In this document: in pieces, positions 14,086 to 44,290 of the stretch
How the letters are laid out: every line of letters starts with the position of its first letter
Numbering within the stretch: position 1 is the first letter of the stretch
Assembly: GCA_903828595.1 (NCBI GenBank)
Contig: CAIKMS010000026.1
Coordinates: 1 to 64,000, forward strand
Direction: 5' to 3'
From: an uncultured Pseudomonadota bacterium
GTDB lineage: Bacteria; Pseudomonadota; Gammaproteobacteria; Steroidobacterales; Steroidobacteraceae
DNA: 64,000 nucleotides
Notes under the pieces: model-generated
What the model was told of the DNA's origin: nothing
The model's input: the letters and a program-made list of their open reading frames with translations, nothing else
Database searches by the model: none
Translations under genes and position numbers: made by a program

Positions 14086-16047
14086 TTAGGGTAACCAAAC
14101 CTGCATTACTCGGGTCCGCCCGGCAAACTGGCCACGAACCGTGACTGGCACCGCCGGGTTCAATGGTTTCCAGCGCAGGTCCAGTAATCGACTGTGTTCG
14201 GGTCCTTCTACTTGGACTTTGGCATGCAGCTGCCTCGTCTTGCTGGCGATTGTAACGGTTCCCGTCAGTTTCGCGTCATCTGTCCAGGCAACGGCCTGCA
14301 GCGTAAGTACGGTTTGTGGATGTTGCGACGCAATATAAAAAGTGCCACCGCGTAATCCTACGCCCGTGCCGGAGCTGTTATTCGCCTGTCGAATTAATAC
14401 GTCCTCAATGCTCTCTAGCGCGATAGCAATCGCCTGACGGTCGGCAACGGTAATCGGGCTAGGGTGCACCAGCCGCACCGGGGGCACTTGCCGGGCATGT
14501 TGATGAAATTCCTGGACTAAAGGCACTGCCGGTATGGACTCGCGGCAGGCTGTGTCGCCGATAGCGGCGCGCTTGATGAAGGCACGCGTGATCTGTGCGC
14601 CGCAGGGACTGCGGGCACGCGCCAGGGCATTCACATGAAAACTGTTCTTGAGAATTACCTGGTGGCCATGAGGAAACTGTTCGGCCACTTCCCGGCCATC
14701 GCTGACGGTGGTCATGTTGTCCAATTCTCCGGAGAGAACCAACACCGGTATCGAGGGGTAGGGCCGCTGCTCTTGTTCGTGCAGGGAAGTGTACCGTGCC
14801 AGCTCGACCGTGGGCCAGAGCACGCACTGGTCAATAAACGCATAATCCAGCGGCAGGCTGCGGTACTCATCGTAACTAAATGGCGCGTAGGCGTCGGGGA
14901 CACGTTGTTGGCGATCCCGTAGCGCCTGATCACGCTCTGCAATTCTTTCAACGGGTGAGCGCGTCATCGTGAAAATCTGCGGCGCATCACCGCACATGAT
15001 CGCGGCCGCTAAACCGCTGCTAAAAATGCGCGGATCTGAACTCTCGTCGCGCGAGTCAACGCTGACGTGGGCCTCGGCCAACAGTCGATGTAACGGCGCG
15101 GGATCATCGGCAAGGTAGGCGCGTGCGGCGGCATCGGCCTCGCGGACCGTAGCCAGTGCGGGAGCGGCGCCAAACAGCATGGTCGCCAGGGCGGCGCCAT
15201 CCGCCTTAAAAGCCACTTTCTTACCATTAAAGTCCACGGCCTGGATGCTCTGGGCATTCTTACGCAGACGACGCAGCACCGACTGCAGGCGATCCATGGA
15301 CGTGCCGGATAACATGGCACAGGTGGGCGATCGTGTGCAGGCGAGGTTGAACTTGTCGCGCATGGCCGGCGCATAACTGGTGTACCAACCTGCCTCCCGG
15401 CCTACTAAGGGGTAGGCTCCATCCAGGGTCAAGGTGCGCAGACGCTCAGGATGACGCAGTGCGAAGGTTTGTGCCGTAAAGGTTCCGTAAGAGTCGCCGT
15501 AAAGATCGATAGTCGAGATGCTCAGGGCATCTAAAACCGCGGCTAAATCATCGGCTGCATACGACGTGCTGTATAGCCAAGCGGCGGGCCCTAAGTCGGC
15601 TCCGCACTGCGCTATCGCCGTCAACGTCAATTCAGCGTCAGAGGCCTGCAGACTCGGACAGTTCAGCGCACCAGATCCACCCGTGCCGCGGTTGTCCATG
15701 ATCAACACATCGTGGGTTTTCATCAGCGGTTTGAATAGATGGAGGTAATCGCGGCGTGACTCGCGCGCCGAAAATCCCGGCCCCCCTTCCGTTGCGACTA
15801 ACGTTCCACGCGCAGGGCCTTTGGCTTGATGGCGATAAAATTCAAAAACGATGGGCAAATTACCCGGAACCTGTCCCAGAGGATCGAGGGGGCGAACGAG
15901 CAGCCCGCACAGCGCCCCTGGCACGCCACACTCAAATAGGGCAGTGGTTTCAGGGCGCTCCAGGCGTAACACGGTGGTTGCCTGGGCCGAAAAGCTTAAT
16001 GCAAATACCGAAAGTAGCCCGACAGCAAGGTAAGAGTAGGGTCTCAT
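14086..16047 (-). CDS. Exported alpha/beta hydrolase, tripeptidyl aminopeptidase (TAP) type
   Basis: A 653-residue S33-type hydrolase with a signal peptide (residues 1-23, cleaved after AQA). The nucleophile is Ser near 186 in LYGDSYGTFTA. The oxyanion segment is GGPGFSA, and the NRGTGGSGAL loop is typical of proline iminopeptidase and tripeptidyl aminopeptidase families. The TAP-like C-terminal domain gives PVLVLSGELDNMTT (acid residue) and the catalytic His in LKNSFHVNALA. A further ~150 residues follow that I do not recognise. It is 14 bases downstream of the MFS permease gene and 60 bases upstream of the receptor gene, so the three probably form one operon for peptide use. Confidence 0.85.
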   Translation of the reverse strand: MRPYSYLAVGLLSVFALSFSAQATTVLRLERPETTALFECGVPGALCGLLVRPLDPLGQVPGNLPIVFEFYRHQAKGPARGTLVATEGGPGFSARESRRDYLHLFKPLMKTHDVLIMDNRGTGGSGALNCPSLQASDAELTLTAIAQCGADLGPAAWLYSTSYAADDLAAVLDALSISTIDLYGDSYGTFTAQTFALRHPERLRTLTLDGAYPLVGREAGWYTSYAPAMRDKFNLACTRSPTCAMLSGTSMDRLQSVLRRLRKNAQSIQAVDFNGKKVAFKADGAALATMLFGAAPALATVREADAAARAYLADDPAPLHRLLAEAHVSVDSRDESSDPRIFSSGLAAAIMCGDAPQIFTMTRSPVERIAERDQALRDRQQRVPDAYAPFSYDEYRSLPLDYAFIDQCVLWPTVELARYTSLHEQEQRPYPSIPVLVLSGELDNMTTVSDGREVAEQFPHGHQVILKNSFHVNALARARSPCGAQITRAFIKRAAIGDTACRESIPAVPLVQEFHQHARQVPPVRLVHPSPITVADRQAIAIALESIEDVLIRQANNSSGTGVGLRGGTFYIASQHPQTVLTLQAVAWTDDAKLTGTVTIASKTRQLHAKVQVEGPEHSRLLDLRWKPLNPAVPVTVRGQFAGRTRVMQVWLP

Positions 16048-16061
16048 GAGCGATGGTCGCC

Positions 16062-17378
16062 TTATTGCCCGGGCTGAGCCTCATCAGTAACCGATGCCTT
16101 GAGCGCGGATTCCGTTGGAGAGGACTCTGGCGCATCAGGGTGATAAGGCAACCACGAGTAAATTTCCGGGGAGGTCTGCGGATAGGCCAGGAAATCCTCG
16201 TGAGTTTCTTCTGAGCGTTCCTGCGGTCGGCGTCTGAGACGCCAGACCGAGAAAAGCGTGAAGCTAACCGCTAAGACGATGGCGTAGACAAAGAATCCGG
16301 ACGGATACGTGTACTGCATGATGACCGCACCCAGGGTAGGACCTATCGCACCACCGAGTGCCCAAACTAACAGCAGGGTGGAGGACAAGGCGATGTAGTC
16401 CGCCGATACAGCACGGTCGTTGGCATGTGCTACGCCAACGGCATACAGGCTCTCGACAAAGCCTCCGAAACTCACAAAAAGCAAGGCTAAGAAAAGGAAA
16501 TTATGAATAGAGGATCCCAAGCAGATGGTCGCCGCCGTCAAACTAACCAACACACCCAGGCCGATTAGCGCATGCAGTCGATCGACCTTGTCCGACAAAA
16601 AGCCGATAGGCCATTGCAACAACAGGCCACCGACGGAGATACAAACCATCAGAATAATGATTCGATCCTGACTTAACCCGATTTGCTGACTGTAAAGGGG
16701 CGCTAAGGTCGTGAATGCGGTGCCAATCAGTCCGGTTAACAGGCAGGCCATGACGCTGGCCGGTGATGTTCTAAGGGCCTGACCGATCTGCATTTTCACG
16801 GGCGGGTTGGGCGGAGGTCCCACAACATCGATAGCAGCCACGGGTACGAGTGCTAGGGCAGTCATGATGCTGGCGATAATCAGTAGCTCAGGTCCTGCTA
16901 AGTTTAAGTAACTGCCCATAAGTTGTCCTACGCCGTAGAACATTCCAAGAACCAAAAGGTACAGCGTTAAAACCCGGCTGCGTTGGTGATTTGGCACCAG
17001 CGCATTCAGCCAGCTCTCGACGATGACAGCCAGTCCAGCCGCATTGAAGCCCAATAAAAAGCGCAACACAGACAGCGGCAGTGCGGCTGAGCAAAAAAAG
17101 ATGAGTAAAATGATGGCGGCTTTCATGGCAGCAAAGGCTGAATAAGCCCGGACCTGACCCACTGGTGCGATGAGTCGATGCACCTGCAAGCACCCGAGCA
17201 TAAAGCCGGCTGCCTCGGCGGTGGCCAGAAGTCCGATGGTGCTTTGCGACATGCCGGCGGCCGAGAAGCGTAGCGGCAACAGGGTCATCAAACCGGTTGC
17301 GATAGAACTTAAAGCCGTACTTAACAAAGGCGGCGCGACACGACGAGCGAGCAGGGCGTTAGGGTTAGCTGGGCGCAT
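16062..17378 (-). CDS. MFS transporter (YcaD-like)
   Basis: A 438-residue inner membrane permease with twelve predicted membrane segments and the loop-2/loop-8 MFS signatures (for example PIGFLSDKVDR after the seventh segment). Overall architecture resembles the YcaD group. About 50 hydrophilic residues follow the last membrane segment (from RRRPQER on). It is the first gene of the minus-strand peptide-use series and lies divergent from frmA. The substrate cannot be told from the sequence; small peptides or amino acids are a guess from context. Confidence 0.78.
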   Translation of the reverse strand: MRPANPNALLARRVAPPLLSTALSSIATGLMTLLPLRFSAAGMSQSTIGLLATAEAAGFMLGCLQVHRLIAPVGQVRAYSAFAAMKAAIILLIFFCSAALPLSVLRFLLGFNAAGLAVIVESWLNALVPNHQRSRVLTLYLLVLGMFYGVGQLMGSYLNLAGPELLIIASIMTALALVPVAAIDVVGPPPNPPVKMQIGQALRTSPASVMACLLTGLIGTAFTTLAPLYSQQIGLSQDRIIILMVCISVGGLLLQWPIGFLSDKVDRLHALIGLGVLVSLTAATICLGSSIHNFLFLALLFVSFGGFVESLYAVGVAHANDRAVSADYIALSSTLLLVWALGGAIGPTLGAVIMQYTYPSGFFVYAIVLAVSFTLFSVWRLRRRPQERSEETHEDFLAYPQTSPEIYSWLPYHPDAPESSPTESALKASVTDEAQPGQ

Positions 17379-34556: not shown

Positions 34557-37211
34557 ATGAACTGTAAGAAGACGTTGTCCTACGCCGTACTGGCGACACT
34601 GGCTGCCGCCGCTGGCGCTGCTCGTGCTGATGCACCCGCCGCTGAATCATCGATGAGCCTTGAAGAGGTAGTCGTTACCGCACAGCGCCGCTCGGAAAAT
34701 CTGCAGAACGTGCCGATCAGCATTCAAGCGCTGACCGGAGAGACGCTGAAAGAATTGAAGGTCTCGACGCTGGACGAGTTCGTGAAGTATCTGCCTAGCG
34801 TTTCCACGGCTACCTTAGGCCCTGGTCAGGGCAACATCTATATGCGCGGTTTGAGCATCGGTGCTCTGGGTACCCAAGGCCAAGGTTCGGTAGGACAGTG
34901 GCCAAACGTCGCCGTCTATCTGGACGAGCAGTCGACGCAGATCCCAGGCCGTAACCTCGACGTCTACGCGGCTGACCTTGAGCGTATTGAGGTGCTTGAA
35001 GGCCCACAGGGAACGCTCTTTGGTGCGGGCGCTGAGGCTGGCGTGCTTCGTTACATCACGAACAAGCCTAAGCTCGGCGTCACTGAGGGCAACGTTTCTG
35101 CGGGTTACGACACGACCGCTCATGGCGCCTCCAGCGCTAAGGGCGAAGCTGTCATTAACTTGCCGATCACGGAGAACCTCGCTGCTCGCGCGGTGATTTA
35201 CAGCGACTCGCGCGGTGGTTACATCGACAACGTGGGAAGCACGTTCACCCGTCAGGGCACGGACCTTGGCTTTGCACAGCGCACGGGCGGCCAGGTGCCA
35301 GCGGACTCAGTTGTTATCAACAACTACAACATAGCCGGTCGCGCCATCAACCCAGTAACGTACAAGGGCATGCGCCTGGGTCTGAACTACAAGATCAACG
35401 ACGATTGGAGCGCTTTGCTTCAGCAGACGTATCAGGACATGAATGCGTCGGGCGTGTTCTATCAGATGCCAAAGGGCTCTGAGGGCCAAACGCTCAATCC
35501 GCTTGAGGTCACCGTGTTTAACAACGGTGTCACGAACGACAAGTTCTCAAACACCGCGCTGACCGTCAACGGCAAAGTGGGCTTAGTCGACGTTACGTAC
35601 GCCGGTGCCATGCTGACCCGCGATTCGTACCAGATCCAGGACTACACGAACTACGCTCGCGGCGTCTACGGAAGCTACTACCAGTGCACGGGTTATTCCG
35701 GATCCTCGGTAAACAAGTGCTACACCCCATCGTCGGTATGGCGTGACACCACGCATAACAGCAACACAAGTCATGAATTGCGCTTCACGACCCCAAACAC
35801 CTGGATGTTCTCGGGCGTAGGTGGCGTGTTCTGGGAGCAGCGCAAGCTCAACGACGACACCGAGTGGCTGTATAAGTCAGTTCCTGAGTGCACCACGGGT
35901 GGACCCGCCAGCTGCTTCTTGTACCTAGACGCATCGCAGTCACCGAAGTTCCAGAATGCCTCCATGAACAACATGGGTCAACGTGACCCAAGCGTTGGCT
36001 TCGTGGATGACTTCCAGCGTACCTACACGCAACGCGCGGTGTTCGGTTCGGTGGATTGGCATATTGTCGATGACCTGACCTTGACCGTTGGTACCCGTTA
36101 CTTCAACATCGAGAACCAGATGTTGGGCGGCAACATGGGAAGCTTCTTCTGCAAGAACTACGGCGCAACCGCTCCGGCTAGCGCAGCTTGCAACGGCACG
36201 ACGTCCGGTTACGGTGAGGCTTCGGGCAAGGCGCCATACGGCACCAACCTCAACAACCAAGATCCGAATTCGACCACAGCTTCGGGCTTTAAGAGCCGCG
36301 TTAACTTAAGCTGGAAGCCGACCGCTGATACCTTGTTGTATGTCACCTGGTCGCAAGGTTATCGCCCGGGTGGTTTCAACCGTGGTGAAGCTCAGCATCT
36401 ACCAGCTGTCAACGCGGCCGGCAACGGACCTGGTGCTAACCAGTGGCAGGTCCCAGCGGCATACGCCTCCGACGACCTCACCAATAAGGAAGCGGGCTGG
36501 AAGACGTCGTTCATGCACAATCGCATCCAGTTCAACGGTGCGGTGTATCAAGAGGACTGGAATAACGTCCAGACCGGTATCTTTGCACCACAGTTGGGCC
36601 TCGGAAATCTGACCGTTGGTCTGAACGGGCCGAGCTACCAGGTTCGTGGTGTGGAAATGAGCGTGATTGCTCGAGCAACTGAAGGGCTCACCCTCCAGGG
36701 TTCGATGTCTTATAACCAATCGGAGCTCAAAACCTCGCCAGGCTTGGTCGACAACATCGTAGGTTCACCAGGCTATGGTCAGCAAATCACGCAGGCGTGG
36801 GTTGGCGGATCAGCGGCAAACGGTGGTCACGCGGTGCCGGTCGTGAACGTATTCGGTACCCCGGGCGACCCGCTCGCCAACTCGCCGAAGCTTCAGGCTA
36901 ATGCTCGTGCCCGCTACGAGTGGTCGTCGGATCAGTACAACTACTACGCGCAGTTAGGTGCCGCTCATCAGGGCAGCTCCTTCTCATCGGCCACTTCGGT
37001 GAACCGCTTTGAGATGCCAAGCTGGACCACATGGGACGGCTCGGTTGGCGTGTCGAAGGGAGCATGGAACGTTGATCTTGTGGGTTCAAACCTCACGAAC
37101 ATCAACCAGAGCGTGTTCACTTCGGCGGCGCAGTTCATCCAGGTCCAGGTACCGCAACGCCCCCGCACGATCGGGTTGCGTTTCGGTTTCAAGTTCAAGG
37201 ATATGAACTAG
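34557..37211 (+). CDS. TonB-dependent outer membrane receptor
   Basis: An 884-residue receptor counted from the ATG at 34557, which has a ribosome binding site and a proper signal peptide (MNCKKTLSYAVLATLAAAAG, cleaved near ARA-DAP). The frame is open from 34509 but the extra 16 residues do not fit a signal. The TonB-box region is LEEVVVTAQRRSENLQ; the plug includes YMRGLSIG and GPQGTLFGAGAEAGVLRYITNKP; the barrel ends in GLRFGFKFKDMN, with a few residues beyond the usual terminal aromatic. Codon choice is biased (many AAC, AAG, GGC; few rare codons), unlike its neighbours, suggesting strong expression. It is followed by two hairpins and two TPR-sulfotransferase genes. The ligand is unknown. 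Confidence 0.92.
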   Translation: MNCKKTLSYAVLATLAAAAGAARADAPAAESSMSLEEVVVTAQRRSENLQNVPISIQALTGETLKELKVSTLDEFVKYLPSVSTATLGPGQGNIYMRGLSIGALGTQGQGSVGQWPNVAVYLDEQSTQIPGRNLDVYAADLERIEVLEGPQGTLFGAGAEAGVLRYITNKPKLGVTEGNVSAGYDTTAHGASSAKGEAVINLPITENLAARAVIYSDSRGGYIDNVGSTFTRQGTDLGFAQRTGGQVPADSVVINNYNIAGRAINPVTYKGMRLGLNYKINDDWSALLQQTYQDMNASGVFYQMPKGSEGQTLNPLEVTVFNNGVTNDKFSNTALTVNGKVGLVDVTYAGAMLTRDSYQIQDYTNYARGVYGSYYQCTGYSGSSVNKCYTPSSVWRDTTHNSNTSHELRFTTPNTWMFSGVGGVFWEQRKLNDDTEWLYKSVPECTTGGPASCFLYLDASQSPKFQNASMNNMGQRDPSVGFVDDFQRTYTQRAVFGSVDWHIVDDLTLTVGTRYFNIENQMLGGNMGSFFCKNYGATAPASAACNGTTSGYGEASGKAPYGTNLNNQDPNSTTASGFKSRVNLSWKPTADTLLYVTWSQGYRPGGFNRGEAQHLPAVNAAGNGPGANQWQVPAAYASDDLTNKEAGWKTSFMHNRIQFNGAVYQEDWNNVQTGIFAPQLGLGNLTVGLNGPSYQVRGVEMSVIARATEGLTLQGSMSYNQSELKTSPGLVDNIVGSPGYGQQITQAWVGGSAANGGHAVPVVNVFGTPGDPLANSPKLQANARARYEWSSDQYNYYAQLGAAHQGSSFSSATSVNRFEMPSWTTWDGSVGVSKGAWNVDLVGSNLTNINQSVFTSAAQFIQVQVPQRPRTIGLRFGFKFKDMN

Positions 37212-37229
37212 TACTGCAGGCAAGAAACC

Positions 37230-37256
37230 GTAGCAGGCCGCACGTCGGCCTGTTAC
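37230..37256 (+). terminator. First hairpin after the receptor gene
   Basis: GTAGCAGGCCG and CGGCCTGTTAC pair over 11 bases (one G-U) around a 5-base loop, starting 18 bases after the stop codon. No U-tract follows directly; the intrinsic terminator comes next at 37265. Confidence 0.55.
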
Positions 37257-37264
37257 GGACAATG

Positions 37265-37292
37265 ATGGCGGGCCTAGTGCCCGCCATTTTTT
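37265..37292 (+). terminator. Rho-independent terminator after the receptor gene
   Basis: ATGGCGGGC, a CTAGT loop, and GCCCGCCAT form a perfect 9-base stem followed by a run of T. This should stop most receptor transcripts before the first sulfotransferase gene, giving a high receptor to enzyme ratio if they share a promoter. Confidence 0.88.
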
Positions 37293-37319
37293 ATCCCCCA
37301 ATCAGTCCTTATCGAATGA

Positions 37320-39296
37320 GTGAAAACAATGCCTTGGTCTGAAGCGGAGCTACGTGAAGCGCTCAGCACGGGACGTTTCACGGATGTGTTGGCGGCACTA
37401 GACGGCTTACTTGCCGAGGACCCTACACATCGCAACCTGCTCTACTACCGAGCGGTAGCCCAGCGCATGCTGACCAGGATTCCTGAGGCGCTGGTGACCT
37501 TAGCGCGCCTGGAGGAGTTTCATCCAGCCTACTCGCGCGGGTTCCAGGAGCGGGGCCATTGCTATATTTTCTTAAAAGACGCTGACAACGCGATAGCGTC
37601 TTACGAGCGCGCCGTGCAACTCAATCCGGCACTGGACGCAAGTTGGCGAAGCCTGGTGACTCTCTATCGAATGGTAGGTAACGAGTCCGCGGCGGCAAAC
37701 GCCGCCAAACACCTAAATAAACTCGGTTCACTGCCTCGTGAAATCACCACCGCCCGTAGCATGGTCTGTGACCAAGACTTTGCTGAGGCAGAGCAGCTTT
37801 TACGGCCCTATCTGGTGCAGCATCCAGACGACGTAGAGGCGATGCGGCTGCTGGCAACGATTGCCCGCGAGAACGAGTTCACGACGGACGCTGAGGTTAT
37901 TCTCGAGCGCCTGCTGACACTGGCGCCTGACTATAATGCCGCGCGTTACGATTATGTGCTGAATCTGATCGACCTTCACAGACACGAGCGTGCAAGAGTC
38001 GAGTGTGAGCGATTGCTTGAGGCCGAGCCGAACAATCCAGGCGCACGCATAACCTATGCCAGCGTGCTCATGGCCCTAGGCCATCTCGATCGTGCAATCG
38101 AAGGCTACAAAGAAAGCATTCAGGCGTTGCCCAACGATGCCGAGGTGCATCAGTCCCTGGGGCATGCATATAAAACGATCGGCGATCAGGCGCAGGCCGT
38201 GGCTTATTACCGAAAGGCAGCACAGGTTCGCCCAGGGTTTGGCGAGCCATTTTGGAGTCTTGCCAATCTCAAAACTTATCGGTTTACTGAAATCGAACTC
38301 GATCAAATGCGCGAAATTGAGTCAAGCCCCGCGGTCCAGCGTGCGGATCGGTATCACGTCTGCTTCGCCCTAGGAAAAGGGCTGGAGGACACGCACCGTT
38401 ATGCCGAGTCGTTCACCTACTATGCACGCGGCAACGAGTTAAAAAAACAGGAAAATCGTTATCGAGCTGAGCTTCAGGAGCGAGCGATCGCACGGCAGCT
38501 TGAAATTGCCAATGCGGAATTTTATGAGGCGCGGCGTGGCTGGGGCTGCAAAGACGGCGCTCCGATATTCGTGCTGGGCCTGCCCCGGGCCGGCTCGACG
38601 CTACTTGAGCAGATTCTCGCCTCACACTCGATGGTGGAAGGTACGATGGAACTTGCGGACGTGCCGCGGATGGTCGGCTCCCTCGGCAGCTTCGCATCGC
38701 CAACCCAAAAACATTATCCGGAGGCGCTGCTCGAATTAACCGCCGATCAATGCGTTGAGTTTGGTGAACGATACCTTAAGGGCTCGTCAGCCTATCGGGT
38801 GGGGAACCCCTTCTTCATCGATAAAATGCCCAACAACTGGCGAAATATCTCTCTCATTCAGCTCATGCTGCCCAATGCCAAAATTATCGATGCGCGTCGA
38901 GATGCAATGGACTGCAGTTTCTCTAATTTCAAGCAACTTTACGCGTCGGGGCATCAGTTCGCTTACAGCCAAAGTGACATTGGCCGCTATTACCGCAGCT
39001 ATGTAACTGCGATGTCGCACTGGGATCACGTTTTGCCGGGTCGCGTGCTGAAAGTTCAGCACGAAGATGTGCTGAATGATCTGGAGGCAAGCGTGCGCCG
39101 GATCCTCGACTACTGTGGGTTACCGTTTGAGCCGGCCTGCATCGATTTTCATAAAAACACCCGCCGTGTGCATACGGCCAGTGCCGAGCAGGTCAGACGA
39201 CCCATCAATCGGGACGGTGTGGGTCAGTGGCGCCCGTACGGGCCCTATCTGAGTGAGCTCAGGGAGGCTCTTGGAGATCTCGGCTCCAGCGACTAA
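37320..39296 (+). CDS. TPR-sulfotransferase, copy 1
   Basis: A 658-residue cytoplasmic protein: about 350 residues of tetratricopeptide repeats (for example NAIASYERAVQLNPALDASW, AEVHQSLGHAYKTIGDQAQA) followed by a sulfotransferase domain. The 5'-phosphosulfate loop of PAPS binding is GLPRAGSTLLEQIL near residue 419. The 3'-phosphate-binding segment is DARRDAMDCSFSNF near 525. The family transfers sulfate from PAPS to an acceptor; TPR fusions are often thought to act on proteins or peptides. It starts at GTG 37320 or ATG 37329, just after the receptor's terminator. The link to the receptor suggests sulfation of the receptor, its ligand or a related product, but nothing proves it. Confidence 0.85.
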   Translation: MKTMPWSEAELREALSTGRFTDVLAALDGLLAEDPTHRNLLYYRAVAQRMLTRIPEALVTLARLEEFHPAYSRGFQERGHCYIFLKDADNAIASYERAVQLNPALDASWRSLVTLYRMVGNESAAANAAKHLNKLGSLPREITTARSMVCDQDFAEAEQLLRPYLVQHPDDVEAMRLLATIARENEFTTDAEVILERLLTLAPDYNAARYDYVLNLIDLHRHERARVECERLLEAEPNNPGARITYASVLMALGHLDRAIEGYKESIQALPNDAEVHQSLGHAYKTIGDQAQAVAYYRKAAQVRPGFGEPFWSLANLKTYRFTEIELDQMREIESSPAVQRADRYHVCFALGKGLEDTHRYAESFTYYARGNELKKQENRYRAELQERAIARQLEIANAEFYEARRGWGCKDGAPIFVLGLPRAGSTLLEQILASHSMVEGTMELADVPRMVGSLGSFASPTQKHYPEALLELTADQCVEFGERYLKGSSAYRVGNPFFIDKMPNNWRNISLIQLMLPNAKIIDARRDAMDCSFSNFKQLYASGHQFAYSQSDIGRYYRSYVTAMSHWDHVLPGRVLKVQHEDVLNDLEASVRRILDYCGLPFEPACIDFHKNTRRVHTASAEQVRRPINRDGVGQWRPYGPYLSELREALGDLGSSD

Positions 39297-39599
39297 CGCG
39301 CGACGGTCAGTGAGATCTGCCGCCGCACTGGGCCACCCAGTTTCAGGGTGCAGATGCGGGCCTTAGCGTGAGGTCGTGCGATTTAAGCATCCGGCATATT
39401 CACTTGATATCGGTCAAACCGCAGTTATCGTAGGGCCAGCACTGCAGACATCGATTTACTTTAAGTGAAGGGCTGTTGAGCTTTCACGTTAATTGTCAGG
39501 CCTTGGATTTCCTGACGGACTCTTGCGCTGCGACGTATTACCGGTGCTATCGTAGAATCCAGTGTCGAAAGTAGATTCGGCTTATTTGAGAGGCGCTTT
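39297..39599 (+). promoter_or_regulatory. Gap between the two sulfotransferase genes
   Basis: These 303 bases contain no credible gene. An inverted repeat GTCAGG-ccttggattt-CCTGAC lies near 39497-39518. The length suggests that copy 2 has its own promoter. A possible TTGCGC/TATCGT pair near 39530-39555 has a 19-base spacer and is not reliable. Confidence 0.35.
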
Positions 39600-41591
39600 A
39601 TGGAGATAAGGGCGGAGCACGAGGTCTCTTCACTCATTGAGAGTCGGGTGCTTCGGGTTCGGCAATACCTGGAGCAGGATCGATTTGCCGAGGCATTGAG
39701 TCTGAGTGAGGAACTTCGGCATCAAGTCCCGCAAAATCGTGATGTGCTCTATATGCACGCCGTTAGTTTGCGCAATATGCGGCGTACAGCTGAAGCCTTG
39801 CAGACCTTAAAAATATTGGAGGAGCACCACCCCAAGTTCAGTCGTCTCTACCAGGAACGTGGCTATTGCTACGTTGCCTTACGCGACGCACCCAACGCCA
39901 TTGCCGCCTTTCTGATAGGCGTTAACCTAAATCCAGCATTGCCAGCCAGTTGGGCACAACTGGAGGGTTTGTTTAGGATAACCGGGCAGATCGATAACGC
40001 GCGCATGGCTGCTGAACACGTAGCCACGTTGGCGAACTTGGCTCCGGAGGTGACGGCCGCTACGGGCTTGTATTCTGATGGCGAGCTGGTGCCCGCGGAG
40101 AACCTAATCCGGGAGTACTTGCTGCGCGTGGGTAATGACGTGGAAGGCATGCGCCTGCTGGCCAAAATCGGCATGGACTTAGATGTGCTTGATGACGCCG
40201 AGTTTTTGCTAGAGTCGGTTTTGGCTATCACGCCGAATTACTCGGCGGCGCGTTATGACTATGCGCGCGTGCTTTTAAAACGTCATAAACACGTGTTGGC
40301 CATGGCTGAGCTGGATCGGCTTTTAGCAAATGATCCAAAAAACCCGGCGTATCGAACGACTTACGCCACGGCTTGTATCGGCATTAGTGAGCATGAAAAA
40401 GCGCTGGCAATCTATCGAAGTTTGCTGGACGAAACGCCTCGCTCTGCGGACATTCATTTATCGGTTGCGCACGCACTGAAGACTCTGGGGCGTACCCAAG
40501 AGGCTATTGAGACTTATCAAAAATCAGCGGCTCTTCAGCCAAAGTTTGGGGACGCCTATTGGAGTCTGGCGAATTTAAAGACTTATCGTTTTACCGATGC
40601 AGAGTTTGAGGTGATGCGTCGTGAGGAAGCGTCCGATACGACTCAACTCGCGGATCGTTATCACTTATGTTTTGCGTTAGGAAAGGCATTGGAGGATCGC
40701 GGGGACTATTCTGAATCCTTTGCCTATTACCAGCGCGGTAATGCGTTAAAGAAATCTGAGAGTCGATTTAAGATTGAGTCGGTAGAGCGCAACACGCGTC
40801 TGCAGATAAAGGTGTGCACGAAGGAATTCTTCGCCCAACGAAAGCAGGTTGGGTGTGTCGCGCCGGATCCTATTTTTATTGTCGGACTACCACGGTCGGG
40901 TTCTACGCTGCTTGAGCAGATACTGGCTTCGCACTCGCGTGTGGATGGAACGATGGAGCTGGCTGATATTTCTCGTATCGTTCAGGATTTGCTGGGGCGC
41001 GATATGGATTCTGAAACGCCGCGATATCCGGGAATTCTTGCTGAAATGCCCGAGAAGGAATTTTTAAAACTGGGCGAGCGTTACTTAGAAGATACTCGCG
41101 TGTATCGTGGCGACCGGCCGTTTTTTATCGATAAGATGCCCAATAACTTTCGCCATATCGGCTTGATTCATCTGATGCTGCCGAATGCCAAGATTATCGA
41201 CGCTCGCCGTGAACCGATGGCTTGTTGCTTTAGCAACTTTAAGCAACTCTTTGCTACAGGTCAGGAATTCACTTATTCGCTGGATGACATCGCTCGCTAC
41301 TATCGATCTTACGTGCAGCTGATGGCGCATTGGGATATGGTCTTGCCCGGTAGCGTCTTGCGCGTCCAGCATGAGCAGGTAGTGGATGATCTGGAAGCCA
41401 ATGTGCGCCGTATTTTGGATTTTTGTGGATTAGAGTTTGAGCCGGCCTGCGTTGAATTTCACAAAAATTCCCGTAGTGTTCATACCGCGAGCTCTGAGCA
41501 GGTGCGTAAGCCTATTTACCGCGACGGTCTGGATCAATGGCGCAATTACGAGGCGTACTTAGGTCCCTTGCGACAGTCGTTGGATGCGTGA
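39600..41591 (+). CDS. TPR-sulfotransferase, copy 2
   Basis: A 663-residue paralogue of the preceding gene, aligned end to end with it. TPRs fill about residues 1-360 (for example NAIAAFLIGVNLNPALPASW, ADIHLSVAHALKTLGRTQEA). PAPS-binding motifs are GLPRSGSTLLEQIL near residue 428 and DARREPMACCFSNF near 540. The two copies share GTMELAD, PFFIDKMPNN, LMLPNAKIIDARR, YYRSYV and a closing EQVR-P-RDG pattern, but differ widely in the TPR part and in third-base composition (copy 2 uses more A/T-ending codons). The duplication is therefore not recent, and the two may recognise different partners. Confidence 0.85.
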   Translation: MEIRAEHEVSSLIESRVLRVRQYLEQDRFAEALSLSEELRHQVPQNRDVLYMHAVSLRNMRRTAEALQTLKILEEHHPKFSRLYQERGYCYVALRDAPNAIAAFLIGVNLNPALPASWAQLEGLFRITGQIDNARMAAEHVATLANLAPEVTAATGLYSDGELVPAENLIREYLLRVGNDVEGMRLLAKIGMDLDVLDDAEFLLESVLAITPNYSAARYDYARVLLKRHKHVLAMAELDRLLANDPKNPAYRTTYATACIGISEHEKALAIYRSLLDETPRSADIHLSVAHALKTLGRTQEAIETYQKSAALQPKFGDAYWSLANLKTYRFTDAEFEVMRREEASDTTQLADRYHLCFALGKALEDRGDYSESFAYYQRGNALKKSESRFKIESVERNTRLQIKVCTKEFFAQRKQVGCVAPDPIFIVGLPRSGSTLLEQILASHSRVDGTMELADISRIVQDLLGRDMDSETPRYPGILAEMPEKEFLKLGERYLEDTRVYRGDRPFFIDKMPNNFRHIGLIHLMLPNAKIIDARREPMACCFSNFKQLFATGQEFTYSLDDIARYYRSYVQLMAHWDMVLPGSVLRVQHEQVVDDLEANVRRILDFCGLEFEPACVEFHKNSRSVHTASSEQVRKPIYRDGLDQWRNYEAYLGPLRQSLDA

Positions 41592-42929: not shown

Positions 42930-42991
42930 GGCTTTGGTCGTACACTCGCGGTGGCCGTTAATACCGTCTTCGGGTCTTGGGGTGTGATCTG

Positions 42992-44290
42992 ATGCTGGTG
43001 CATCGAGCGAGGGGCATCCTGCTGGCCTTGTTGTGGGCGATGCTCAGCACGACCGGGCAGGCTCAGACGCTGGGTGAGGCGACGCTCTGCGATGAGTCTA
43101 GCCTGGTAGCCGATGTTTTTCGGTTGCTGGATGAGCGCTTACGCCTTATGCCGGGTGTAGCGGCTGCCAAATGGCAAACGCATGGTGCGATTAGCGATCC
43201 GGCGCGGGAGGCTGTGGTGATTGCAGCTGCCGGTAGCCGGGCACGGGCATTAGGCCTGAGTCCTGAACCGGTTGAGGATGTTTTTAAAGTTCAGATTCGC
43301 CTGGCAGTCGAGTTACAGACTCGGCTGACCGCGCACTGGGTGCAAGACGGCTATGAGTATCCCGGCGTAGTTCCCGATTTAGCTAAAGATCTGCGACCCC
43401 GGTTAGATGCGCTGACCGAAGAAATACTGACATCGTTGTATCTAGCCACCCCCGGTCTGGCGGCACTTCCCAGCGAGGAGCTTGATCGGTTGGCCCTACG
43501 CGGACTTCCGGTTGAACGATGGGCAGACGCAGATCGTAAAACGATGGTTGACGCTCTGCGACGTTTAGCACTGGTGGAGCACGGCTCGTGGTCACGGGCT
43601 CGGGCCGTGGGAATTTTGCGCGTGGGCACGCCCGGTGACTACGCGCCATTCAGCGCGATCCACGCAGGATATTTGCTGGGTTCTGACGTCGAGTTAGTGC
43701 AGGCGCTGGCCCGTCAGCTTGGCGTACGTGTCGTGTTTATTCGCTCATCCTGGAAAACCCTTTTGCGGGATTTATCCGAGGATCAGTTTGATCTTGCCGT
43801 AGGCGGCATTTCGCTAACACCGGTGCGATTGGCTATCGCCGAAGGCTCCATCCCATTGGCACATAGTGGAAAAACCGCGCTTGGGCGTTGTGCTGATCGA
43901 AACAAATTATCTACGTTGGCGGCAATAGACCGTCCTTTGGTTGTGGTGGTGGAGAACCCTGGTGGAACCAATGAAGCGTTTGCCCGTGGTCATTTGACCC
44001 ACGCTCAGTTGCGCGTGCACGGCGATAACGTGACCGTATTCAACGAGATCATGGAACACCGTGCGGATGTCATGTTCACGGACGAAACGGAGGTGGATTT
44101 GCAGACCCGGCGCCAGCCTTCGTTATGTCGATTGACCCTGAAGGCATTTGAGATGGCCGACAAGGGCTTTCTTTGGATGGCATCGGGGGGGTGGGCGCCT
44201 CTGGTCAATCCCTGGCTGAAAGCGCAACAGCAGCAAGGCGTTCCGGAGCGGCTCCTGCAGCGATCCGTAGAAGCTTTCGCTGGATTTTAG
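42992..44290 (+). CDS. Exported chorismate mutase (AroQ gamma) fused to cyclohexadienyl dehydratase (PheC-like)
   Basis: A 432-residue exported bifunctional enzyme. Residues 1-24 form a signal peptide (cleaved after GQAQ). Residues about 25-165 are a gamma-class chorismate mutase: LLDERLRLMPGVAAAKW, then DPAREAVV, then VFKVQIRLAVELQ, which carry the expected Arg, Lys, Glu and Gln positions. Residues about 205-430 match the periplasmic cyclohexadienyl/arogenate dehydratase PheC: LRVGTPGDYAPFS, NPGGTNEAFARGHL, VHGDNVTVFNEI, and a TDETEVDLQ acid segment. Together they would turn chorismate to prephenate and then to phenylpyruvate in the periplasm. Frame is open from a TTG at 42977, but ATG 42992 gives a clean signal peptide. 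Confidence 0.85.
   Translation: MLVHRARGILLALLWAMLSTTGQAQTLGEATLCDESSLVADVFRLLDERLRLMPGVAAAKWQTHGAISDPAREAVVIAAAGSRARALGLSPEPVEDVFKVQIRLAVELQTRLTAHWVQDGYEYPGVVPDLAKDLRPRLDALTEEILTSLYLATPGLAALPSEELDRLALRGLPVERWADADRKTMVDALRRLALVEHGSWSRARAVGILRVGTPGDYAPFSAIHAGYLLGSDVELVQALARQLGVRVVFIRSSWKTLLRDLSEDQFDLAVGGISLTPVRLAIAEGSIPLAHSGKTALGRCADRNKLSTLAAIDRPLVVVVENPGGTNEAFARGHLTHAQLRVHGDNVTVFNEIMEHRADVMFTDETEVDLQTRRQPSLCRLTLKAFEMADKGFLWMASGGWAPLVNPWLKAQQQQGVPERLLQRSVEAFAGF

Follow-up and report, generated by a model that had tools for sequence, protein, structure and literature searches.

The window, the whole 64,000-nucleotide stretch of DNA that was analysed, carries a gene for a TonB-dependent receptor that is followed on the same strand by an intrinsic terminator and by two genes for sulfotransferases with tetratricopeptide repeats (TPRs). 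The features of this locus are as follows.

34557-37211, plus strand: TonB-dependent receptor, 884 aa, codon-biased; Pfam Plug and beta-barrel domains
35640-35729, plus strand: receptor loop L4 with its flank, residues 362-391 (D362-Y363-T-N-Y366 ... Y374-Y375-x-C377 ... C388 ... P391); proposed sulfation site, from conservation, with the side taken from the predicted model
37264-37298, plus strand: intrinsic terminator in the gap between the receptor and the first sulfotransferase; 10 pairs and a T tract, from a hairpin scan
37320-39296, plus strand: TPR-sulfotransferase 1 (enzyme 1), 658 aa; TPRs and PF13469 (Sulfotransfer_3), E 3e-45
38550-39293, plus strand: TPST-like catalytic domain of enzyme 1; R423 (in PRxGST), E444, K502, S621
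39600-41591, plus strand: TPR-sulfotransferase 2 (enzyme 2), 663 aa; TPRs and PF13469 (Sulfotransfer_3), E 7e-51

The receptor matches the Plug (PF07715, 7e-15) and barrel (PF00593, 8e-23) families in Pfam, and the top PDB folds for its AlphaFold model (mean pLDDT 89.7) are siderophore receptors, including FyuA and PiuA. It shares the plug and barrel fold with FyuA, FhuA and Fiu but, unlike them, has loop L4 with its Tyr/Cys residues and is paired with a sulfotransferase. The initial annotation, made from the letters alone, had described a receptor with biased codons, a strong terminator behind it and two TPR-sulfotransferases that differ mainly in their TPRs, and our analysis bears out this description. 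The receptor has the lowest ENC (42.6) of the 33 scored window genes (median 51.6), with values of 53.4 and 53.0 for enzymes 1 and 2. The terminator, placed by the scan at 37264-37288, ranks first in the scan list of the window, which holds 30 terminator-like sites versus 12.7 (sd 4.4) in shuffled sequence. The two enzymes are 42% identical in the TPR part (133/320) and 63% identical in the catalytic part (154/243), indicating that they diverge chiefly in their TPRs, and the same contrast holds family-wide (mean pairwise 0.42 vs 0.65 in the first 40 of 76 alignment rows). The genes next to the enzymes encode the receptor and a GluP/FucP-type MFS protein. Sarcosine-oxidase-like and dimethylglycine-dehydrogenase-like genes, the latter named from its domains, stop 2.7 kb upstream of the receptor, with an Ada gene and a TauE gene in between. 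The window also contains, at 42977-44290, a family 3 solute-binding protein fused with a chorismate mutase domain (Pfam).

Linkage of receptor and enzyme

The pairing of receptor and TPR-sulfotransferase extends well beyond this locus. In the window's own genome (3.09 Mb, 34 contigs), PF13469 has 7 matches and Plug has 28, and six of the seven PF13469 genes have a receptor gene no more than 2.5 kb away (one on contig C15, three on C21 and two on C26). For the seventh, on C28 (L011), the sole Plug match of the contig is more than 100 kb distant. Assuming a chance of about 9% per enzyme of having a receptor within 5 kb, this linkage has P ~3e-6 for 6/7 genes, or ~3e-4 when counted as 4/5 distinct places. 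In contigs picked solely by enzyme similarity, the best 80 of at least 548 confirmed relatives, the receptor lies no more than 500 bp upstream, on the same strand, for 66 of 83 plus-strand enzymes; of the others, 2 have it downstream and 5 at a distance of 0.5-3 kb, while it is farther away for 2 and lacking for 8. Among the 10 farther or receptor-less enzymes of these best 80, six have less than 1 kb of upstream DNA, and L079, L130, L134 and L143 have at least 2 kb of upstream DNA with no receptor in it. In the same best 80 of at least 548 relatives, the first 3 kb upstream contain 0.301 receptors per kb, compared with 0.005-0.023 per kb in the five other zones. A second set, of 40 regions from 20 near relatives taken among the better matches, contains 49 enzymes. 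For 25 of them a receptor lies on the same strand no more than 500 bp away (upstream of 11, downstream of 14), and for 3 it is on the opposite strand; 7 have one at 0.5-3 kb and 1 has one farther off, 1 shares a single frame with its receptor, and 12 are without one. Two pairs of entries, L072/L053 and L082/L050 (named contig versus near-relative region), match in length and are probably the same DNA in both sets. The single-frame case, L037 (7067-10876, minus strand, in the near relative G001:C77), is a 1269-aa frame in which the enzyme comes first and the receptor signal peptide is internal; this fusion, seen on one contig, may stem from loss of a stop codon or from misassembly.

The same association is found at the level of whole genomes. 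Among 397 Pseudomonadota genomes, a strong receptor match (E<=1e-190) occurs in 34 and a strong enzyme match (E<=1e-200) in the identical 34, the own genome included, with both cut-offs set after the gap in E-values was seen. All of these but the own genome (33 of the 34) are listed at 99-100% completeness, and the Fisher P for co-occurrence, calculated without the own genome and ignoring shared descent, is 6e-49. Weaker matches, left out of the count, are receptors at 1e-102 to 1e-112 in G486, G532 and G581 and enzymes at 1e-141 to 1e-166 in G326, G367, G409 and G547, with enzyme matches covered up to E 1e-140. Of 40 strong receptor matches, 39 have an enzyme match no more than 500 bp away (25 receptor-first, 13 enzyme-first and 1 on opposite strands), and the sole exception is the C33 receptor of the own genome; these counts cover the top two receptor and top three enzyme candidates per genome, so unpaired copies may be missed. 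In 232 gammaproteobacterial genomes a strong receptor (E<=1e-170) is present in 7, all of which have a strong enzyme, and an eighth (G123) has the enzyme with a weaker receptor 1.6 kb on. The neighbourhood check that the initial annotation proposed therefore returns strong conserved linkage on each scale (66/83 enzymes, best 80 of at least 548 relatives; the same 34/397 genomes; 39/40 receptors).

The terminator between the two genes recurs as well. A terminator-like hairpin is present in 48 of 63 receptor-first gaps of 40-400 bp, with 0.55 expected from shuffled gaps, indicating that the order receptor, terminator, enzyme is a layout of the family.

The 23 best receptor relatives from 21 related genomes include 10 that adjoin an enzyme or lie within 2 kb of one, 12 that are unpaired (some near contig ends) and 1 that stops at a contig end. 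The genomes of the 12 unpaired sister receptors carry enzymes elsewhere, and any modification of these receptors would have to occur in trans, if it occurs. In 12 stretches with more distant TPR-sulfotransferases, a receptor is found in 4 and none in 8. One such enzyme (L292, G199:C3, 1784-10072) lies between FlgL and flagellin genes, with FlgK also nearby, an arrangement that makes flagellin sulfation possible, and in L290 a TPR-sulfotransferase adjoins an autotransporter gene.

Enzyme fold and neighbouring genes

By sequence and fold, the enzyme is nearer to protein-tyrosine than to small-molecule sulfotransferases. A PDB sequence search with the catalytic part returned TPSTs as nearest for both enzymes (8w5z, 1e-6 and 2e-7), and the CurM and Ols sulfotransferases were also matched. 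In the AlphaFold model of enzyme 1 (mean pLDDT 92.6), the catalytic domain aligns with TPST1 bound to gastrin peptide (5wrj_A) with Z 22.8 and an rmsd of 2.5 A over 238 residues, compared with Z 18.0 and 3.9 A over 223 residues for Ols and Z 17.3 and 3.5 A over 221 residues for CurM. The TPR half has OGT, SPINDLY and designed TPRs as structural matches. Residues R423, G425-S426-T427, E444, K502 and S621 (enzyme 1 numbering) are invariant in 76 alignment rows, and R423, E444, K502 and S621 align with TPST residues that we take to be the PAPS-binding Arg, the catalytic Glu, the Lys and the Ser. An Ala in enzyme 1 aligns with the TPST substrate-binding Arg, presumably R101, and the acidic-tyrosine rule therefore need not hold. 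The likeness to animal TPST1/TPST2 (5wrj, 3ap1, 8w5z) thus covers the catalytic fold, an alignment across the whole catalytic domain, the PAPS loop PRxGST/T, the position of the catalytic Glu and the DKxP/NKDP Lys. In contrast to those Golgi enzymes, which have no TPRs, the enzymes here carry a TPR superhelix N-terminal to the catalytic domain, show no membrane anchor and have a putative protein substrate, and their TPST-like character suggests that they would transfer sulfate to a protein tyrosine. An obvious N-terminal signal is absent from the enzymes, as an N-terminal hydrophobic stretch >1.5 occurs in 4/76 enzymes versus 58/72 receptors, and one >1.9 in 0/76 versus 22/72, making a signal peptide unlikely. 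An APS kinase gene is present in the own genome.

The genes around the pair were surveyed as those directly beside receptor-first pairs in the named loci (best 80 of at least 548 relatives) with enough DNA. A BCCT (betaine/carnitine/choline) transporter is the commonest neighbour, directly upstream in 20/61 and directly downstream in 8/54, followed by MarR regulators (4 upstream, 5 downstream) and Beta-lactamase-family proteins (4 directly upstream); every other family, MarR-overlapping models apart, occurs in 1 or 2. Protein clustering of 69 loci gave a BCCT-like cluster, taken for BCCT, in 31 and a MarR-like cluster in 15. A general third gene that might be the real substrate was sought and none was found, BCCT and MarR being frequent but not general. 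Together with the sarcosine- and dimethylglycine-type neighbours, the BCCT transporters suggest methylated amines as receptor ligands.

In L109 (8675-11848, Brevundimonas), a Sulfotransfer_2 protein and an Asp/Asn beta-hydroxylase lie between receptor and TPR-sulfotransferase; L115 (Caulobacter) looks alike, Pfam having been run on L109 only. In L010, a receptor lies between two sulfotransferases, and an Asp/Asn hydroxylase fused to TPRs is encoded nearby. In L008 (C15 of the own genome), the pair lies among DAO, HD and HAD-hydrolase genes, which by eye look like a phosphonate degradation set, and the stretch L286 contains a tryptophan halogenase gene (14703-16283) together with four ORFs matching the sulfotransferase profile.

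These data bear on two explanations in which the substrate is not a protein of the cell surface. In the first, which we consider unlikely, the sulfate acceptor is a small molecule or peptide (the ligand, a siderophore-like product or an osmolyte such as choline) and the receptor imports the product. Ols and CurM, the next fold matches after TPST, act on polyketide chains, and uptake or catabolic genes often adjoin the pair; TPST is nonetheless the closer relative, and OGT-like TPRs bind proteins. The catabolic neighbours also vary between loci while receptor and enzyme persist, and no exporter or biosynthesis family stands directly beside the pair in more than two members in the named-loci survey. 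Excerpts of PMC10040529 give near-consecutive cluster numbers for a lasso-peptide B2 protein, sulfotransferases and an aspartyl beta-hydroxylase, and so indicate that sulfotransferases can accompany peptide products; the two gaps of the window, however, hold no ORF of at least 20 aa with Asp-Tyr of the kind expected of a RaxX-like precursor. The excerpts also place receptor, BCCT and sulfotransferase in separate table rows for halotolerance. In the second explanation, which seems very improbable, the enzyme sulfates a cell-surface glycan and its linkage to the receptor is regulatory. No glycosyltransferase family stands directly beside the pair in more than one member (among families listed with at least two), and the enzyme is tied to a single receptor clade. 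Glycans do serve as substrates of some PF13469 enzymes.

Loop L4 of the receptor

The partner receptors have in common a tyrosine-rich loop of unusual constancy, predicted from strand order in the model to be extracellular loop 4 (L4). Y363, Y366 and Y375 are present in 75/75 core paired receptors, and C377 and C388 in 74/75, the core set being 75 of 94 distinct paired receptors with 19 set aside by tree position. In an alignment of 72 rows (70 paired and 2 unpaired receptors), L4 has 7 columns conserved at >=90%, six of them Tyr/Cys, whereas in the other extracellular loops 20 of 316 columns reach this level and none is Tyr/Cys. The 397-genome draw provided 36 further receptors (38 fetched, 2 dropped as identical to earlier ones), with Y363 in 36/36, Y366 in 36/36 and D362 in 34/36; they were found by a profile that includes the loop and are related to the earlier receptors. 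The Cys pair among these 36 is present in 21/22 receptor-first versus 2/14 other receptors.

The conservation of the D-Y-x-x-Y loop suggests that the receptor is the target of the enzyme. The loop marks one receptor clade, however, and ligand binding could therefore account for its invariance. It is retained in the unpaired sisters (Y363 and Y366 in 10/10), and the full L4 pattern is absent from most of 34 more distant unpaired receptors. As a regular expression, D/E-Y-x-x-Y is found in 86/94 paired receptors, with 8/94 lacking it, and in 23/44 unpaired receptors, a count that omits 13 with an enzyme within 3.5 kb and includes the one-frame receptor of L037 as unpaired. We therefore rejected D-Y-x-x-Y as a general marker of pairing. 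Paired receptors outside the clade, including L236, L238, L240 and L241, have no such loop, and several loop-less receptors pair with short or other TPR-sulfotransferases, indicating that pairing is wider than the motif. A general tyrosine enrichment in paired receptors was likewise dropped (4.64% paired vs 4.69% unpaired); tyrosines in an acidic context are mildly more numerous in paired receptors (5.0 vs 3.5 per protein).

These observations leave room for a reading, improbable in our estimate, in which the modification falls on other residues of the receptor, or of another surface protein (for example Ser/Thr or a Tyr outside L4), and L4 is an unsulfated aromatic box for a quaternary amine. 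The BCCT transporter as commonest extra neighbour would fit such a box, as would the loop-less paired receptors and the unpaired sisters that retain the loop. Known TPST and RaxX sulfation sites likewise have Asp before Tyr, which argues instead for L4 itself, as does the substitution seen in distant relatives: in L223/L224 (one genus) and L230 the place of L4 holds D-S-S-E-F, with Ser and Phe replacing both tyrosines, in genomes without a PF13469 frame longer than 334 aa. These represent two lineages only and are not close relatives; a search for further enzyme-free relatives added none.

Proposed mechanism and known systems

The reading that we favour, at a probability of about one half, is that receptor and TPR-sulfotransferase form a dedicated pair in which a cytoplasmic, TPR-guided TPST sulfates L4 of its partner receptor before export and so aids ligand capture. 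The enzyme would remain in the cytoplasm, the site of PAPS synthesis, where its TPR superhelix could grip the receptor chain while still unfolded. The TPST-like domain would then sulfate at least one L4 tyrosine, with Y363 the first candidate because it follows Asp, and Y366 the next. Sulfation would precede Sec export and barrel assembly, after which the sulfated loop, which a disulfide would close in receptor-first systems, may help to capture a ligand that might be a methylated amine, either cationic or zwitterionic. Read-through at a leaky terminator might keep the enzyme level low relative to its abundant substrate receptor. Against this mechanism, unpaired sisters keep the loop and some paired receptors are without it, which may mean ligand binding alone. 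Enzymes also occur without a nearby receptor (C28 of the own genome, 12/49 in near relatives and 8/12 distant stretches). In favour of the mechanism, related enzymes adjoin other exported surface proteins (FlgK/FlgL/flagellin in L292, an autotransporter in L290). The interpretation given in the initial annotation, a modification system in which sulfation of the receptor, of another surface protein or of a secreted ligand matters for uptake, is thus partly supported, with receptor sulfation and its importance for uptake being what we infer.

The closest bacterial precedent is RaxST of the Xanthomonas raxX-raxSTAB system, described in parts of PMC9372746 and PMC6637879 as a bacterial TPST acting in the cytoplasm ahead of export, and modelled on TPST2 in the latter. 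The enzymes here resemble RaxST as TPST-type enzymes of bacteria proposed to work in the cytoplasm before export, but they carry TPRs, whereas the word "tetratricopeptide" is absent from PMC6637879. In addition, the substrate of RaxST is the small secreted RaxX, encoded beside the RaxAB export genes, while the candidate here is an outer-membrane receptor, and no RaxA/RaxB-type exporter lies beside the window enzymes. O-GlcNAc transferase and SPINDLY likewise join a TPR superhelix to a transferase domain, but the catalytic part here is PF13469 rather than the OGT glycosyltransferase domain and the donor is different. Sections of a 2022 review (PMC9372746) describe TPST as sparsely distributed, with most bacteria lacking it and RaxST of Xanthomonas as the bacterial example, and state, citing unpublished observations, that bacterial TPSTs are frequently encoded next to extracytoplasmic proteins. 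Searches of the open-licence PMC literature turned up no account of a receptor paired with a sulfotransferase.

Compared with the "sparse" distribution in those sections of PMC9372746, our survey ties a TPST-like enzyme to one receptor clade in 34/397 sampled Pseudomonadota genomes. More tentatively, tyrosine sulfation of receptors might be widespread in bacteria, with TPR-TPSTs dedicated to TonB receptors, and elsewhere to flagellins and autotransporters, and with an anionic, tyrosine-rich loop that captures methylated amines. The named loop and the named gene pair make receptor sulfation directly testable. If the enzyme sulfates the receptor, gram-negative bacteria would possess a dedicated modification of import receptors. 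Many bacteria keep an outer-membrane import receptor beside an enzyme resembling human tyrosine sulfotransferase, and the receptor may be sulfated before export.
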